NCBI RefSeq assembly: GCF_003259895.1
Contig: NZ_QLME01000029.1
Location: forward strand, 1-37,919
DNA from: Halanaerobium saccharolyticum
GTDB lineage: Bacteria; Bacillota; Halanaerobiia; Halanaerobiales; Halanaerobiaceae
Length of the DNA: 37,919 nucleotides
Direction: 5' to 3'
Shown here: positions 15,278 to 29,463 of the stretch, piece after piece
Layout of the letters: each line of letters begins with the position of its first letter
How positions within the stretch are numbered: the stretch's first letter is position 1
Made by a program: the position numbers and the translations under genes
The notes under the pieces: generated by a model
The model's input: the letters and a program-made list of their open reading frames with translations, nothing else
The model's database searches: none
Told to the model about the DNA's origin: nothing

Positions 15278-16150
15278 ATGATTTCTAAGCTTGAAAATAA
15301 TGAGATTAAAATTAAAGTGGATACTCAGGGAGCTCAGCTGCAGAAATTAATTTTAAAAGAGGATCAGAAAAATTATTTGTGGCATGGAGATTCTAAATAC
15401 TGGGGTAGAAGGGCACCTGTATTATTTCCGATTGTTGGCCGCTTAAAAAATGACAAATATTTATATAATGGACAGGAATATCAAATGACTCAGCATGGTT
15501 TTGCCAGAGATAATGAGTTTGAATTAGTAGATCAGGATAAGAATTTTTTGACTTATGCTCTGGAGGAAAATAGGGAAACATTAAAAAAGTATCCTTTTAG
15601 ATTTAGACTGGAGATTAAATATACAATTAAAGAAAATTCTCTTGCTGTAACTTATCGGGTTATTAATCAGGATCAAAAAGACATGTATTTTTCTATAGGA
15701 GCTCATCCGGCTTTTTATTGGCCGCTTGCTGAAAATGAAAGCAAAGCTGATTATTATTTAGAGTTTGAAAAAGAAGAAAATGCAGATAAATATTTACTGG
15801 ATTCAGGTTTACTAAATAATGAAAAAGTTAAGGTACTCAGTAATTCTAAAATATTAGAGCTGCAGCCGGATATTTTTAAAGATGATGCCCTGGTTTTTAA
15901 AGATCTAAAATCAGAAAAAATAACTTTAAAGAGCAGAAAATCAAATAGAGAAGTTCAGGTTGAATTTAATAACTTTCCCTATTTAGGAATCTGGTCTCAA
16001 TCGGCCGCGGCCCCTTTTATCTGTATTGAACCCTGGCAGGGAATTGCTGATTCCGTTAACAGCAGTGGTAAGCTAGAAGAAAAAGAAGGAATAAAGCGAT
16101 TAAAAGCAGGAGGAATATTTAAATGCACCCATACAATCACTATCGATTAG
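15278..16150 (+). CDS. Aldose 1-epimerase family protein (LacX/YeaD-like)
   Basis: 290 residues, beginning ISKLENNEIKIKVDTQGAQL. The family features are YLWHGDSKYWGRRAPVLFPIVGRL, QHGFARD and FSIGAHPAFYWPL (catalytic His region), and FICIEPWQGIAD (Glu region). It interconverts anomers of hexoses or related sugars in the cytoplasm, which would feed sugar released by the divergent phosphorylase. Only nine bases separate its stop from the first radical SAM gene, so it is probably co-transcribed with the heme genes. That pairing has no obvious metabolic logic. The start at ATG 15278 is preferred over the out-of-frame ATG at 15271. Confidence 0.88.
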   Translation: MISKLENNEIKIKVDTQGAQLQKLILKEDQKNYLWHGDSKYWGRRAPVLFPIVGRLKNDKYLYNGQEYQMTQHGFARDNEFELVDQDKNFLTYALEENRETLKKYPFRFRLEIKYTIKENSLAVTYRVINQDQKDMYFSIGAHPAFYWPLAENESKADYYLEFEKEENADKYLLDSGLLNNEKVKVLSNSKILELQPDIFKDDALVFKDLKSEKITLKSRKSNREVQVEFNNFPYLGIWSQSAAAPFICIEPWQGIADSVNSSGKLEEKEGIKRLKAGGIFKCTHTITID

Positions 16151-16159
16151 AGGTAAAAT

Positions 16160-17338
16160 ATGTTTAATATAACTAAAATGCTAACAGAATTTAATACTTA
16201 TGGAGATCAGCTGCGCTATGATAAAGACTGCAGTCAGTCATCAATTGGAACCCGACCTGGACTGGGACCAGTTGTTGCCTGGAATATTAATTCTCAGTGT
16301 AATTTAAACTGCAAACACTGTTATTCAAATTCTACAGCAGCTAAAAAAGTCGAAACTTTAAATACAAAAGAGGCTTTTGCTTTAATTGATCAGCTGGCTG
16401 ATTTTAAAGTCCCGGTTTTACTTTTGTCGGGAGGAGAACCACTGCTGCGCCCGGACTTATTTAAATTGATAAAAAAGGCTAAAAGCAGAGACTTAAGGGT
16501 AGTTTTATCTACAAATGGAACTCTGCTGACGGAAAAAATGGTTCAGGAATTAAAATCTCTGGGAGTTAGTTATATTGGAATCAGCCTTGATGGAATGAAA
16601 ACAGTTAATGATCAATTTCGCGGTAAAAAAGGAGCCTTTAATGCTGCTTTAGAGGGTATTCAAAACTGTCAAAAATATGATCAAAAGGTAGGACTTCGTT
16701 TTACTATTAATCAGGAAAACTATCAGCAAGTTGATGAGCTTTTTCAGCTGATTGAAAAGGAGAATATTCCCCGGATTTGTTTCTATCATCTGGTTTATTC
16801 AGGTCGAGGAGAAAATATTAAGGAAGCTGAATTAAGTGATCAGGATAAAAAGATGACAATTGATAAAATTATAAACTGGACTCAGTATTTTATCGATCAG
16901 GGAGAGCCCAGAGAAATATTAACAGTTGATAATCACGCTGATGGAGCTTATCTTTATTTAAAAACTAAAAAAAATGAGCCGGAGCAAGCTGAATATATTT
17001 ACAGCCAGCTTTTAAAAAGTGGGGGTAACCGCAGCGGCAGTGCAATTGCGAATATTGATCATCAGGGAGACGTTTTTGCAGATCAATTCAGCCGTTTTAT
17101 AAGACTGGGTAATATCAGAGAAAATAGCTTTTCTGAGATCTGGCAGGATCAGAATAATGAGTTTCTAAATAAAATGAGAAACAGAAAAAAACATCTTAAG
17201 GGGCGCTGTGCTGCCTGCCGATTTTTAGAAATCTGTAATGGTAATTTGAGAGCCCGTGCCTATGCAGCTGGTGATTTATGGGGCGCAGATCCCGGATGTT
17301 ATTTAAGCGATCAGGAAATTGGGGGGGTTTATAGATGA
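16160..17338 (+). CDS. ahbC: Radical SAM/SPASM protein NirJ1-type, probable Fe-coproporphyrin synthase (AhbC)
   Basis: 392 residues. The radical SAM cluster is C47-x3-C51-x2-C54 in NSQCNLNCKHC, followed by LSGGEPLLRPD and SLDGM. The C-terminal SPASM-like region has C350, C353, C359 and C380 for an auxiliary iron-sulfur cluster. The start ITKMLTEFNTYGDQLRY with GPVVAWNIN is typical of the Firmicute NirJ1 group, related to heme d1 NirJ and AhbC. AhbC removes the acetate chains of didecarboxysiroheme to give Fe-coproporphyrin III. The presence of NirJ2 and both AhbA- and AhbB-like genes nearby supports heme b rather than d1, since no cytochrome cd1 genes are seen. It overlaps the next gene by ATGA. 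Confidence 0.85.
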   Translation: MFNITKMLTEFNTYGDQLRYDKDCSQSSIGTRPGLGPVVAWNINSQCNLNCKHCYSNSTAAKKVETLNTKEAFALIDQLADFKVPVLLLSGGEPLLRPDLFKLIKKAKSRDLRVVLSTNGTLLTEKMVQELKSLGVSYIGISLDGMKTVNDQFRGKKGAFNAALEGIQNCQKYDQKVGLRFTINQENYQQVDELFQLIEKENIPRICFYHLVYSGRGENIKEAELSDQDKKMTIDKIINWTQYFIDQGEPREILTVDNHADGAYLYLKTKKNEPEQAEYIYSQLLKSGGNRSGSAIANIDHQGDVFADQFSRFIRLGNIRENSFSEIWQDQNNEFLNKMRNRKKHLKGRCAACRFLEICNGNLRARAYAAGDLWGADPGCYLSDQEIGGVYR

Positions 17339-18327
17339 ATATCATATCCTGGAATTCTACAAATAAATGTCATTTAAGCTGTCCTCACTGCTATCGCGAT
17401 GCAGGAAGTGATATGGGAAAAGAATTAAATACTGCTGAAGCTAAAAGAATGCTGGATCAGATTAAAGCAGCTAATTTTCACTTAATGGTTTTTTCTGGTG
17501 GTGAACCACTCTTAAGGAATGACATTTTTGAGTTAATGGCTTATGCCTCAGAAATTGGACTCAGACCAGTGCTGGGAACAGGTGGTGGATTAATTGATGC
17601 CGAAATCGCTGTTAAATTAAAAGAGGCCGGTGTTCTGGCTGCTGGTATCAGTTTAGATAGCGTCATTCCGGAAAAACACGATCAATTCCGGGGAGAAGAA
17701 GGACTTTTTACTAAGGTGGAAAATGCTTTTGTAGAACTTAAAAAAGTGGGAATTCCTTTTCAGACTCACATGACTGTTATGGATTGGAATCTGGATGAGT
17801 TAGAATCTGTAATAGATTATTCAGCTCAAATTGGGGCTAAAGCAGCTCATATTTTCTTTATGGTCCCTACAGGAAGAGCAGCGTATATAGAAGAGAGTGC
17901 AATTTCTAAAAAAGAATATCAGCAGGCTATAGAGAGAATTATGAAAAAATCAGAAGAGGTAGAGATTGAAGTTAAGCCGGTCTGTGCGCCTCAATTTATT
18001 GCTACAGCTGATCAGCTGGATATTCAGTCCCGATTCAGAAATGGCTGTCTGGCAGGTGTAAGTTACTGTATTGTTAATCCTGTTGGAGATGTTCAGCCCT
18101 GTGCCTACCTTGATCTTAAAGTAGGAAATGTTAAAGAAGAAAGTTTTAAATCTATCTGGGAAAACAATAAAACTTTAACTGAGATGAGAACTCTAGACTG
18201 GGAAGGAAAATGCGGCAGCTGTAAATATGGCAGCAGCTGTAGAGGCTGTAGAGCCAGAGCCTATTATTACAGTGGTGACTACATGCAGGCTGATCCCTTT
18301 TGTTCTATAAAAAACACTGGTCTGTAG
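17335..18327 (+). CDS. ahbD: Radical SAM/SPASM protein NirJ2-type, probable heme synthase (AhbD)
   Basis: 330 residues starting NIISWNSTNKCHLSCPHCYR, with the cluster cysteines C12, C16 and C19, then MVFSGGEPLLRNDIFELM and GISLDS. The C-terminal cysteines C293, C296, C302, C305 and C323 (GKCGSCKYGSSCRGCRARAY) fit a SPASM auxiliary cluster. This is the NirJ2 pattern, the group to which AhbD belongs. AhbD oxidatively decarboxylates two propionates of Fe-coproporphyrin III to vinyls, giving protoheme without oxygen. Its ATG overlaps the NirJ1 stop, so translation is coupled. The alternative is a role in a heme d1-like cofactor. Confidence 0.85.
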   Translation: MNIISWNSTNKCHLSCPHCYRDAGSDMGKELNTAEAKRMLDQIKAANFHLMVFSGGEPLLRNDIFELMAYASEIGLRPVLGTGGGLIDAEIAVKLKEAGVLAAGISLDSVIPEKHDQFRGEEGLFTKVENAFVELKKVGIPFQTHMTVMDWNLDELESVIDYSAQIGAKAAHIFFMVPTGRAAYIEESAISKKEYQQAIERIMKKSEEVEIEVKPVCAPQFIATADQLDIQSRFRNGCLAGVSYCIVNPVGDVQPCAYLDLKVGNVKEESFKSIWENNKTLTEMRTLDWEGKCGSCKYGSSCRGCRARAYYYSGDYMQADPFCSIKNTGL

Positions 18328-18367
18328 TTCTGTGACACATATCATATAAACTCCTTTTTAAAGATGC

Positions 18368-18396
18368 TATAATTACTTGAGCAGAATAATCAAGTA
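18368..18396 (+). promoter_or_regulatory. Possible promoter with operator-like inverted repeat
   Basis: TATAAT at 18368-18373 is followed at once by the inverted repeat TACTTGA (18374-18380), nine bases, TCAAGTA (18390-18396). The repeat would cover the transcription start of the gene at 18437. The -35 is poor. This suggests separate, repressible control of the unknown gene inside the heme cluster. Confidence 0.45.
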
Positions 18397-18436
18397 TATT
18401 AATAAAATAAGTATATTAAAAAAAGGAGTTTTGATA

Positions 18437-19090
18437 ATGAGTGCATTTTTAGGCCCAGTCCACATGTGGTTATATAATCAGATTCAAATAGTAGAAAAAC
18501 GGGAAGCGAAAATTGTTGAGCAGTTTGCTAATAAGTATTCGACAGAAGAGGTTAATAATCTAATTTTTGCTTATCGTGATCAGTACGGAGATTTAAAGGA
18601 AGATAAGCCGCTGGCAGAATTAATTGCTGGCAGCAACATCCATCCCTGGTTAGAAACTGCAATTAGTAATGCTCAGAGCAGAGAAGCAGCTGTTGCAGCA
18701 GCCTTAATGGATAAATACGATGATCAAGATTTACTTTTAGATATTTATGCTGATCAGGCAGAAAGACTTGCAGAAAAGGCTAAAATAAGAGACAATGTAG
18801 ATGAGTTTAATTTAGATGATGCTTTTGAAATTATAAATGAACATTTTGTAGAAAGAATGCCCTGTGATCGCTTATCAGGAGCAGTTAAAGAAGAAGGAAA
18901 GATCATCTGGAAACATCAGAGCCGTCTGCATCAGGAATTCTGGCAGCAGACCGAGGTTGAGATGGAGTTAATGCACCAGCTTTACTCGAAGTGGCTGGAA
19001 GTATTTATAGAAAATTTAAATCCCTCCCTTACTCATAAAAGAGTAAGAGAAGCTGATTATTATAATGATATCTTCTTTAATAAAGCATAA
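18437..19090 (+). CDS. Unrecognised His-rich helical protein inside the heme cluster
   Basis: 217 residues from ATG 18437, which has AAGGAGTT eight bases upstream; the in-frame TTGs at 18377 and 18431 have no usable site. The protein looks entirely helical, with no signal peptide or membrane segment. Notable points are GPVHMWLYNQI at 6-16 (H9), NIHPW (H69), NEHFVERMPCDRLSG (H136, C143), KHQSRLH (H160, H165), LMHQLYSKW (H180) and LTH (H200). Spaced His residues on helices, with aromatic neighbours, would suit a heme- or metal-binding bundle, but this is inference. It sits between NirJ2 and AhbA, with its own possible promoter and a terminator behind it. I cannot assign a family. Confidence 0.75.
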   Translation: MSAFLGPVHMWLYNQIQIVEKREAKIVEQFANKYSTEEVNNLIFAYRDQYGDLKEDKPLAELIAGSNIHPWLETAISNAQSREAAVAAALMDKYDDQDLLLDIYADQAERLAEKAKIRDNVDEFNLDDAFEIINEHFVERMPCDRLSGAVKEEGKIIWKHQSRLHQEFWQQTEVEMELMHQLYSKWLEVFIENLNPSLTHKRVREADYYNDIFFNKA

Positions 19091-19130
19091 TCTATAAATT
19101 CATTTCAAATACTTTAATTTATAAATTATT

Positions 19131-19171
19131 AAGCTCAGTTTAGAAAATCATAGGCTGAGCTTATTTTATTT
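19131..19171 (+). terminator. Terminator-like hairpin between the unknown gene and ahbA
   Basis: AAGCTCAG (19131-19138) pairs with CTGAGCTT (19155-19162), followed by ATTTTATTT. The ahbA ribosome binding site begins just after, so some read-through is possible. Confidence 0.65.
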
Positions 19172-19184
19172 AGGAGCTGTTTTT

Positions 19185-19658
19185 ATGGAAAAAATTGATA
19201 AGAAAATTTTAGATAGACTGCAGACGGGTTTAAAATTAGAAGCCTCGCCTTTTCAAAAAATAGCAGCAGAACTGGAAATAGAAGCAGACGAACTGCTGCA
19301 GCGGATTAAAAAGCTTAAAAAAGAAGGTTTTATTCGTCGGCTGGGAGGGGTCTTTAGATCTTCAAGGCTGGGCTATAAAAGTACTCTTATAGCTCTAGAA
19401 GTGGAAGAAGAAAACTTTTATCAGGTGGCTGAAATTATCAATCAGCATTCAGGTGTAACTCATAATTACCGCAGAGATCATCAATTAAATCTCTGGTTTA
19501 CCCTTTCAACGGCCAGTGAGCTTGATCGAGAAAATTTTCTGGCTCAAATTAAAGCTTTACCGGGAGTAAACGAACTCTATCAGCTGCCAAAAGAGAAGTT
19601 TTTTAAGTTAAATGTATTTTTTAAAATGGAAGAGGAAGCCGGTGATCAGCATGAATAA
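19185..19658 (+). CDS. ahbA: Siroheme decarboxylase subunit, Lrp/AsnC-like (AhbA-like)
   Basis: 157 residues. An N-terminal winged-helix region (FQKIAAELEIEADELLQRIKKLKKEGFIRRLGGVF) is followed by an AsnC-type alpha/beta domain. The siroheme decarboxylase hallmark RRDHQLNLWFTLS is present, with Arg and His next to the strand that lines the active site in the family. AhbA and AhbB form a heterodimer that decarboxylates the C12 and C18 acetates of siroheme to didecarboxysiroheme, the substrate of AhbC. The A or B label is by similarity of feel only; the two subunits are alike. It overlaps the next gene by eight bases. Despite the helix-turn-helix it is unlikely to be a transcription factor. Confidence 0.85.
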   Translation: MEKIDKKILDRLQTGLKLEASPFQKIAAELEIEADELLQRIKKLKKEGFIRRLGGVFRSSRLGYKSTLIALEVEEENFYQVAEIINQHSGVTHNYRRDHQLNLWFTLSTASELDRENFLAQIKALPGVNELYQLPKEKFFKLNVFFKMEEEAGDQHE

Positions 19659-20166
19659 TATTTCAGATAACGATTTTGGGGAAATTGTGGATGAACTGGA
19701 TAAAAAGATCATTAAGGCTTTAGAAACTGATATACCCCTGACCTTAAATCCCTATCAAAAAATTGCTGATAATTTAAATATTGATAGAGCTGAACTTTTA
19801 ACGAGATTACAGAAACTTAAAGAAAGAAAAATTTTAAAAAGAATTTCGGCTATTCTACACCACAGGGATTCCGGTTATCAGGCAAATGGGATGTTTGTCT
19901 GTCATTTTAATAAACAGGAGATTGAAGAGGTTGGAAAAGAAATTTCTGAACTAGAAGCAGTAAGCCACTGCTATCAGCGCAAGACCTATCAAAACTGGCC
20001 CTATAATTTTTATGCGATGATGCACGCTAAAAATAAAGAGGAACTGGAAAAGAAGATTGGCCAGCTGGTGGAAAAATACCAGATTGAAGACTATCAAGTT
20101 TTATATTCCACAGAAGAATTAAAGAAAACCAGTATGAAGTATTTCGCTTCTAATTTTGACAATTAA
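19651..20166 (+). CDS. ahbB: Siroheme decarboxylase subunit, Lrp/AsnC-like (AhbB-like)
   Basis: 171 residues from ATG 19651, which lies just before the stop of the preceding gene. The alternative ATG at 19612 would add 13 residues that duplicate the overlapping frame and match nothing. The layout parallels the partner: DELDKKIIKALETDIPLTLN, a winged helix (YQKIADNLNIDRAELLTRLQ), then LKRISAILHHRDSGYQANGM. The hallmark here is CYQRKTYQNWPYNFYAMMHA in place of the AhbA RRDHQLNLW segment. Together the two subunits should supply the AhbC/AhbD pair upstream. Siroheme synthesis genes are not in the window. Confidence 0.86.
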   Translation: MNNISDNDFGEIVDELDKKIIKALETDIPLTLNPYQKIADNLNIDRAELLTRLQKLKERKILKRISAILHHRDSGYQANGMFVCHFNKQEIEEVGKEISELEAVSHCYQRKTYQNWPYNFYAMMHAKNKEELEKKIGQLVEKYQIEDYQVLYSTEELKKTSMKYFASNFDN

Positions 20167-20223: not shown

Positions 20224-20550
20224 ATTATCAAGAAAAAATTAGCAGTTTTAAAAGATCTTCTCTCAATGTTTATTACTCAGCATAGAAATCAACTGTCATA
20301 TATTATTGGTTTTCTTTCTGCGCTAGCTTTTGCTCTAATATATACAAAATTTGGAATTAAATTAGGAGTTTCTGCTTTATTAGCAGGTATTTTAGTATTT
20401 GAAATTTTTGATCATTTCTTTGGTGGCAGCCCGGATATCATAGTTATGGGTGTTGATAGTGAAGAAGATATGATGGAAACTCTAAAAAAGACGATGTCAG
20501 AAGCAATTAAAGAAAAAAATAAGGAAAATTCAAATCAAAAAAATGATTAA
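20224..20550 (+). CDS. Small membrane protein of unknown function, likely ATT start
   Basis: Starting at ATT 20224 gives 108 residues beginning (M)IKKKLAVLKDLLSMFITQHR. AAGGAG (20211-20216) lies seven bases upstream, ideal spacing. The first ATG, at 20266, has no ribosome binding site and would drop 14 natural-looking codons. One hydrophobic hairpin (YIIGFLSALAFALIY and LGVSALLAGILVFEIF) precedes a charged C-terminal tail, MMETLKKTMSEAIKEKNKE, probably cytoplasmic. No ATG, GTG or TTG in this frame lies closer to the site. A family is not recognised. It follows ahbB after 57 bases and ends in a terminator. Confidence 0.65.
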   Translation: MIKKKLAVLKDLLSMFITQHRNQLSYIIGFLSALAFALIYTKFGIKLGVSALLAGILVFEIFDHFFGGSPDIIVMGVDSEEDMMETLKKTMSEAIKEKNKENSNQKND

Positions 20551-27648: not shown

Positions 27649-29463
27649 TTAGACATTGTAACCTTTAAGGTTTTTGCGGAAGTTTTCTGTTAAGTCTTCC
27701 ATTTGCTCAATATAACCCGTCATTTCTTTAATCTTTTCAGAATAATTATTAACGCTGGCACTCATTTCTTCACTGGAAGCAGAATTTTCCTGAGCAATTG
27801 CAGCCAGATTATTAAAGTTTTCAATGACTTCTCTAATTTTCTTTGTTTCTGTATTTAAGCTGCTGACTATATCGACAACCTGATTAGTAGCAGATTCAAT
27901 ATCATTGGTGGCACTATTACTTGATTCAGCAACTTCCTCTAGAGCTTGATTACTTGCCTCAAGATTGGTGAACTGCTCACTGATACTGGAGCTGAGAGTT
28001 TCAACATGTTCGGTAAACTCTCCCAGATTTTTTCTGATTGTCTCAACTGCCTGTTGAGATTCTTCGGCCAGATCTCTTACTTCTTCTGCAACTACTGTAA
28101 AACCGCGACCATTATCAGAAGAGCGAGCGGCTTCAATAGAAGCATTAAGTGAAAGCAGATTAGTTTGTCCGGCAATATCTTCAACTGTATCTACAATTTC
28201 CATGATTGTCTCTATTTTTTCCGAAAGCTGTTTTCCTAACTGATTGACATTGGCAAATGCTTCCCGAACTCCACTGATTCTCTGATTGACATCAACAACA
28301 GCCTGAGTGGAAGAACGAATATTTTTAACAGCATTTTCTAAGTTTTCACGGCTGTCCTGACCGGCTTCAACCAGTTTTTCAATTTCTTCAACATTTTGAT
28401 TGACTATATAAGCGGATTCTTCAGTTTCCTGGGCCTGAGCCTGAGCTCCCTGAGCCACTTCATCTACAACAGTTGAAATACTGCCAGAAACTTCGTCCAT
28501 ATCTTCCGCCAGTTCAACAAAGTCCTTGGTAAAATTATGCATATCATCAGTTCCACCTTTTAAGAAAAGAATATCTTCTCTTAATTTGGCTTTTATCTGA
28601 CGCAGTTTATTAAATAATCTTTCAAAATCATCAGCTGTTTTTAGCCTGTTTTTATCATCAAGATTCAATGCTTCTATTTTACTAAGCTCATCATCAATTG
28701 CTTTAACAGGAGACATTAAAAGTCTGCTAATTAAGGCCAAAACAATTCCCAGTCCAGCAGAAGCCCCCAGATTAATTGTCAAGCCTGCTGAAAACTGAGG
28801 TAGAGATGTTAAAGCAAAACTTAATATAAAAGCAGTAAATCCCATTTTAGCAGGAATACTTTTAAATATACCCAGTCCCATAATTTTAGAGAATAAATAT
28901 TTTTTTTCATTTCTAAATGATTTTTCAAAGCTAATATGTATAGTTAAAAAATCTCGTCCATCATCTAAAGTTCCTCTGTCAATTTCTTCAACCTCAATAG
29001 GAGTTTTGAAAAATGAGGAACTACCCTCTAAAAGACCTAAAAAATAATCGTACATTCCTCTTTCAGATTTATATATCATTTCTATTTTATGATCATTTAG
29101 TTCTTTTGCTCGCAGACGAGGAGGGTTGGCTCCTGGAATCATTTCTGTTAACTGCAGATGCACGGTATCCATCAACATCAAAAAGTTTTTTAAAGTACGA
29201 TTACTGAAATATGAGGGAAACCAGTTGGAAAAAGTTTCAATATTTTTCATCCCCATATCATGCCAGATTTCACCGGGTTTTTTACCTACCTCCTGCCCCA
29301 TATATTTCATTAAATTCTTTGTTTTTTGATCTTCAATTGTTGTCATTGGTGTGATAATTAAATCTTCTTTAAAACCTGCTTTCTTTTTTGCGCTGCTGAC
29401 TACTTCTTCTCCATAAGTTTTTGTAAGAGTTTTAAGCCAGGTCGAAACGACTGTTCCCTTCAT
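27649..29463 (-). CDS. H-NOX domain methyl-accepting chemotaxis protein (heme gas sensor)
   Basis: 604 residues. Residues 1 to about 185 are an H-NOX heme domain starting [13 protein letters not shown]. The proximal heme ligand is H102 in LMDTVHLQL, the heme-distorting proline is P115, and Y131-x-S133-x-R135 binds the propionates. The O2-stabilising network W9, N74 and Y140 is complete, at the same numbering as the Thermoanaerobacter H-NOX chemoreceptor domain. Two membrane segments (about 212-255) and a HAMP-like region follow. The methyl-accepting domain has the conserved tip [20 protein letters not shown] and [13 protein letters not shown]. It should bind O2, and also NO, through ferrous heme and steer the cell through CheA/CheW, probably away from oxygen. 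Confidence 0.95.

Follow-up and report, generated by a model that had tools for sequence, protein, structure and literature searches.

A conserved His/Cys protein encoded in a Halanaerobium heme cassette: a probable member of an HcpR-type nitrosative-stress unit

Does a His-rich protein encoded in the middle of a heme cassette belong to the heme pathway? The question arises from the window analysed here, a stretch of 37,919 nucleotides from contig NZ_QLME01000029.1 of Halanaerobium saccharolyticum. A gene for a protein of 217 aa (18437–19090, plus strand like all features below unless stated otherwise; ATG at 18437, TAA at 19088–19090) had been claimed to lie there between the genes for NirJ2 and AhbA. 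The gene is present at this place, with its own ribosome-binding site (AAAGGAG, 18422–18428). That it is real is borne out by Halanaerobium copies with 72–90% identity and by relatives of 23–52% identity that are near full length and in which the motifs are fixed. We use FAM as a working name for its protein family. Upstream lie a nirJ1-like (16160–17338) and a nirJ2-like (17335–18327) radical SAM gene, the product of the latter scoring 490.6 bits against TIGR04055, slightly below the curated cut-off of 500. Downstream follow ahbA and ahbB for the alpha (19185–19658, NF040708) and beta (19612–20166, NF040707; ORF taken from the first ATG) subunits of siroheme decarboxylase, both above cut-off. 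The outer flanks are formed by an aldose 1-epimerase family gene (15278–16150) and a gene for a protein of 94 aa (20266–20550). This small protein has an apparent membrane segment, is without a match in Pfam or NCBIfam, and is conserved next to FAM or ahbB in Halanaerobium.

The window protein had no match in the Pfam and NCBIfam libraries and thus stands, as originally proposed, as an undescribed conserved component. Matches to myosin, NicR and TM0693 among PDB sequences were weak and at chance level. A scan of the genome collection with the single protein retrieved only Halanaerobium copies besides Asticcacaulis matches of 23 residues, which were discarded. The genome search for the family, in which truncated and broken copies are included, found FAM in 19 of 61 near relatives and in 22 of 398 Bacillota. 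Outside the Bacillota a copy is present in Cetobacterium somerae (Fusobacteriota), and none was found in phages. A copy on a "Streptomyces flavofungini plasmid" was not counted as an actinobacterial member because its neighbours resemble Clostridium perfringens proteins; the record (L224, NZ_CP128848.1, 8041–20628) carries C. perfringens-like genes under the Streptomyces name and is probably a contamination. Another copy (L010, G020:C3:351047-351682) is intact except for a single in-frame TAA near residue 181.

The seven His (H9, H69, H136, H160, H165, H180 and H200) and the single Cys (C143) of the original prediction are all present in the window protein, and they differ widely in conservation. 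Counted over 35 FAM sequences with identities down to 23%, H9, W71, R82, M141-P142-C143-D144, W158 and W169 are invariant (35/35), followed by H69 (34/35) and H165 (32/35). The codons of the four conserved His and Cys residues are located at 18461–18463 (H9), 18641–18643 (H69), 18863–18865 (C143, in the motif MPCD) and 18929–18931 (H165). H136, H160 (14/35) and H180 (12/35) lack such conservation; H160 and H180 are invariant in the close set A1, and this does not extend to the family as a whole. For the four residues whose conservation had been proposed as a check, the expectation thus held for H9, C143 and largely H165, and failed for H160.

The location of the gene suggested a part in the Ahb pathway from siroheme to heme, as a tetrapyrrole carrier, a chaperone or a missing enzyme, and several observations agree with such a role. 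FAM, intact or broken, occurs within a nirJ1-nirJ2/ahbA-ahbB cassette in five genomes, the tetrapyrrole theme recurs in other homologues that adjoin genes of the siroheme enzymes NIR_SIR and AsrABC, and the predicted fold resembles the heme-binding H-NOX domain. AhbA is also enriched about threefold among FAM carriers, at marginal significance: it is encoded in 10 of 17 carriers within the Halanaerobiia (59 genomes; odds ratio ~3.2, p 0.076) and in 7 of 12 carriers in a sample of 249 Bacillota genomes (odds ratio ~3, p 0.054). The co-occurrence proposed as a check is hence no more than marginal, and there are 11 carriers without a confident AhbA (G003, G004, G008, G009, G044, G053, G058, G084, G128, G151 and G285). 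Conversely, nirJ2, ahbA and ahbB are contiguous without FAM in six other Halanaerobiia, one of them of the same genus (G011); nirJ1 directly precedes nirJ2 in G011 and G022 and lies about 1 kb away in G038, G041, G046 and G057. Four ahb-negative Halanaerobium (G003, G004, G008 and G009) possess an intact FAM gene. In these four, and at a separate locus in G005, it is situated between the aldose-epimerase gene and the gene for the 94-aa protein, the same two genes that flank the entire nirJ1-nirJ2-FAM-ahbA-ahbB cassette in the window. Within the cassettes the FAM copy is broken in three of the five genomes, as a pseudogene in G005, a remnant in G007 and a truncated gene in G013. Furthermore, FAM has its own promoter and a probable intrinsic terminator (AAGCTCAG...CTGAGCTT followed by a T-rich stretch, 19131–19171) between its gene and ahbA, the region 19121–19175 having a computed fold of -18.6 kcal/mol. 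Linkage to nirJ and ahb is confined to two genera of the Halanaerobium family (g1 and g3; genus counts here and below follow assigned genus labels). Since cassettes exist without FAM, carriers exist without ahb and cassette copies are broken, the link to the heme genes is local and dispensable. Only some Halanaerobium have FAM inside nirJ1J2-ahbAB, and this place does not reflect its core function. With a promoter and neighbours that point to nitrosative stress, membership in the heme pathway has become very improbable. The case also cautions against inferring function from a single operon, as FAM is found in a heme operon only in part of one lineage.

The operator-like promoter of the original prediction was found and can now be described more specifically. 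A box of the CRP/FNR type (HcpR-like; TGTGACACATATCATA, 18331–18346) is followed by a -10 element TATAAT (18368–18373) exactly 21 bp downstream. This spacing puts the centre of the box at about -41.5 from the transcription start inferred from the -10 element, which is a class II activator position. The sequence TGTGAnnnnnnTCATA is common to seven Halanaerobium FAM promoters, in each exactly 21 bp before TATAAT. At the inferred start lies an inverted repeat (ACTTGA-N9-TCAAGT, 18375–18395). In the genus g10 (L009 and L010) the corresponding position holds a different sequence that likewise pairs, which suggests a conserved hairpin. As the arms differ yet pair, the repeat is perhaps a hairpin of the 5' mRNA rather than an operator; an RNA family search around the FAM gene found none.

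Across the heads of FAM operons, the joint score of box and -10 element reached at least 14/16 at spacing 21 in 13 of 21 genera, and at spacings 14–20 and 22–30 in only 0–3 genera per spacing. Among 389 other genes of the same loci 18 attained 14/16 (Fisher p 2e-11), a comparison in which the consensus had been fixed once the sites were known and the genera are not fully independent, while the fixed spacing and the control with other genes limit the bias. Among the high scorers of the control set are hcp and a nirC-like gene. Boxes of this kind also serve as sites for other Crp/Fnr proteins, and HcpR is the putative activator of FAM. In some clades the FAM box is GTAACnnnnGTTAC or near it; this is the published HcpR2 consensus, and the TGTGA form is that of HcpR (PMC1274295). 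For Clostridioides difficile, PMC12915319 describes HcpR as required for NO tolerance and as controlling hcp and frdX. The FAM promoters thus resemble the HcpR regulon (hcp, frdX and hemerythrins) of both papers in the box types TGTGAnnnnnnTCACA and GTAACnnnnGTTAC and in the kinds of target genes; the passages searched in the main texts of PMC1274295 and PMC12915319 contain no mention of the FAM family.

When the genome of the window was scanned for this promoter class, the sole perfect match was that of the FAM gene. Among the best other matches were those preceding nirC-asrA, a DUF438-hemerythrin gene with a RIC-like gene behind it, a cupin gene and a flavodiiron protein gene. With two mismatches allowed, 14 matches compared with 9 for the reversed control, so that only the best of them carry weight. 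Eight other genomes yielded 28 matches at one mismatch, versus 5 with the reversed control, and these precede FAM (in five genomes) and genes of a flavodiiron protein, hemerythrin and cupin. G053 has matches before ferredoxin-Hcp, a FrdX-like ferredoxin, DUF1858-hemerythrin, DUF1858-Crp and nirC. FAM therefore shares its promoter class with hcp, frdX-like and hemerythrin genes. In G007, where FAM is reduced to a remnant, the box persists and is now located upstream of ahbA.

Outside the heme cassette the neighbourhood of FAM is of the same kind. Neighbours were identified by Pfam and NCBIfam matches of representatives (DUF1858/TIGR03980, hemerythrin, NIR_SIR, Crp, AsrA, AsrB, AsrC and Hcp). 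By this measure 10 of 23 Bacillota genera have DUF1858, hemerythrin or Hcp genes or a siroheme reductase beside FAM, and ahb genes are close to it in two. DUF1858 and/or hemerythrin adjoin it in five genera, with Hcp nearby in two of these, and a siroheme-dependent nitrite/sulfite reductase (NIR_SIR) adjoins it in five others; in one genus (g28) the neighbourhood comprises the NIR_SIR reductase, asrABC and an adjoining Crp/Fnr gene. In Paraclostridium bifermentans, hcp, ferredoxin and hemerythrin genes lie on one side and the order FAM-hemerythrin-NifU-DUF1858-hcp on the other. Peptoclostridium acidaminophilum has DUF1858-FAM-hemerythrin next to MrpORP, and C. somerae has DUF1858-FAM. No telling neighbour was present in the genera f62, g49, g26 and g237, and a small control of eight ahb loci (~80 kb, related genomes) contained no DUF1858, hemerythrin, Hcp or NIR_SIR gene.

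The family name of TIGR03980 is "hybrid cluster protein-associated redox disulfide domain". PMC9268430, PMC8117158 and PMC9052748 describe the RIC proteins (YtfE/ScdA) as combining a ScdA_N domain with a di-iron hemerythrin and as acting in nitrosative stress, with reports both of iron donation and of a reduction of nitrite to NO. DUF1858 shows a weak similarity to ScdA_N, and a DUF1858-FAM-hemerythrin operon hence resembles a split RIC joined by one additional protein. FAM itself has neither a ScdA_N nor a hemerythrin domain. It is encoded between or beside the two apparent halves, and in the genome of the window its promoter class also precedes the RIC-like gene mentioned above.

What kind of protein joins these modules was approached through its predicted structure. 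The original description as all-helical did not hold, because the predicted model, in which helices come first, ends in two beta hairpins. The AlphaFold model obtained with the 35-row alignment has a mean pLDDT of 93.8. The 50 VIA-align rows listed for it comprise TRAPP/Bet3, H-NOX/soluble guanylate cyclase and the V4R domain of PoxR, with Z values of 7.2–9.4, each Z of 7–9 being modest if taken singly. With an earlier model the matches also included MopR and some designed proteins. Bet3, TPC6 and PoxR were retrieved with both models, pointing to a likeness to the V4R/Bet3 superfold at modest Z and for a predicted structure only. The same holds for the H-NOX chain 6bdd, which aligned with a Z of 8.7 over 160 residues at 3.7 Å, modest again and with a predicted structure only. 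Foldseek searches with the FAM models gave nothing at E <= 0.001. Since the fold resembles H-NOX, FAM may bind heme or a tetrapyrrole.

The alignment of H-NOX chains such as 6bdd over almost the full length of FAM, its location in NO-stress operons and its invariant His and Cys would also suit a diverged, stand-alone H-NOX-like sensor that detects NO or O2 through heme or an iron-nitrosyl and signals nitrosative stress. However, the H-NOX Pfam model (HNOB, PF07700) did not match FAM, and a profile-profile comparison gave 0.2%. H-NOX has its heme ligand in the helix that precedes the first strand; at this place FAM shows no conserved His, and it lacks the YxSxR motif, as judged by eye from the alignments. 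No gene for a dedicated output domain lies alongside either, and we regard a sensor as improbable.

Sequence profiles lead to a different relative. One distant FAM member passes the cut-off of the Pfam family ATC_hydrolase (PF14196; 28.6 vs 28.1 bits), to which the window protein has no match, and the FAM profile matches an ATC_hydrolase alignment over residues 85–204 (83%, E 8.5e-6). ATC_hydrolase, V4R and HNOB have been described as similar and grouped together (PMC5847659), and FAM is best read as a divergent relative of the ATC_hydrolase/V4R branch with a predicted H-NOX/Bet3/V4R-like fold. The likeness to ATC_hydrolase concerns the C-terminal half, to which FAM adds about 80 N-terminal residues with conserved GPxH and IHxWL motifs. 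Such kinship, and the presence of NifU, MrpORP or asrABC in some FAM operons or neighbourhoods, would be compatible with an ATC_hydrolase-like enzyme whose substrate would be a thiol (C-S) compound, cysteine-derived or other, that is required for rebuilding iron-sulfur clusters. PF14196 has three conserved Cys, however, of which the second is lost throughout FAM and the first (position 163) is kept in 10 of 35 sequences, while FAM has its own C143 in the new invariant motif MPCD. An enzyme of this kind is hence about as improbable as a sensor.

Taken together, FAM probably belongs to an HcpR-type unit responding to nitrosative stress (NO, nitrite). It is best read as a new partner of a RIC-like module under HcpR-type control, with regulon and neighbours observed and with ligand and reaction proposed as follows. 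An HcpR-type activator from the Crp/Fnr family would switch on the soluble FAM protein under nitrosative stress. FAM would then most likely act as a partner of the RIC-like module (a DUF1858 protein with the motif HCLGCP and a di-iron hemerythrin), and also of Hcp or siroheme reductases. H9, H69, C143-D144 and H165 might bind a metal, NO or a sulfur ligand, whereby FAM could help to detoxify nitrogen oxides or to rebuild damaged iron centres. Every biochemical step of this scheme, including the assembly of H9, H69, C143 and H165 into one site, is inferred, and the ligand-binding mechanism taken alone is put forward tentatively. Somewhat more doubtful is a specific form of it, in which FAM would be the third piece of a split RIC (DUF1858-FAM-hemerythrin) in anaerobes. 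With an H-NOX fold and its own His/Cys metal site it would capture and pass on NO, iron or a persulfide, so that nitrite/NO chemistry would be coupled to the repair of iron centres in one HcpR-controlled unit.

Anaerobes depend centrally on Hcp, RIC and their regulators to survive nitric oxide and nitrite, and the surrounding modules are only partly known. FAM is a conserved, unnamed family in such operons of Bacillota and Fusobacteria, and its invariant His and Cys and H-NOX-like predicted fold make it a concrete and inexpensive target for testing.

Two further gene sets deserve mention. In G008 and G009 the HcpR-like promoter class also governs pairs of small permease-like genes (~158 and 174–199 aa; L195, L200, L201 and L206). 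In the window itself, a gene on the minus strand (27649–29463) encodes a protein of the methyl-accepting chemotaxis type with a full H-NOX heme domain, in which the heme-ligand His and YxSxR are kept. In G013, G005 and G007 an H-NOX chemotaxis gene likewise lies close to the ahb cassette, and owing to this repeated proximity its product may be a client of locally made heme.
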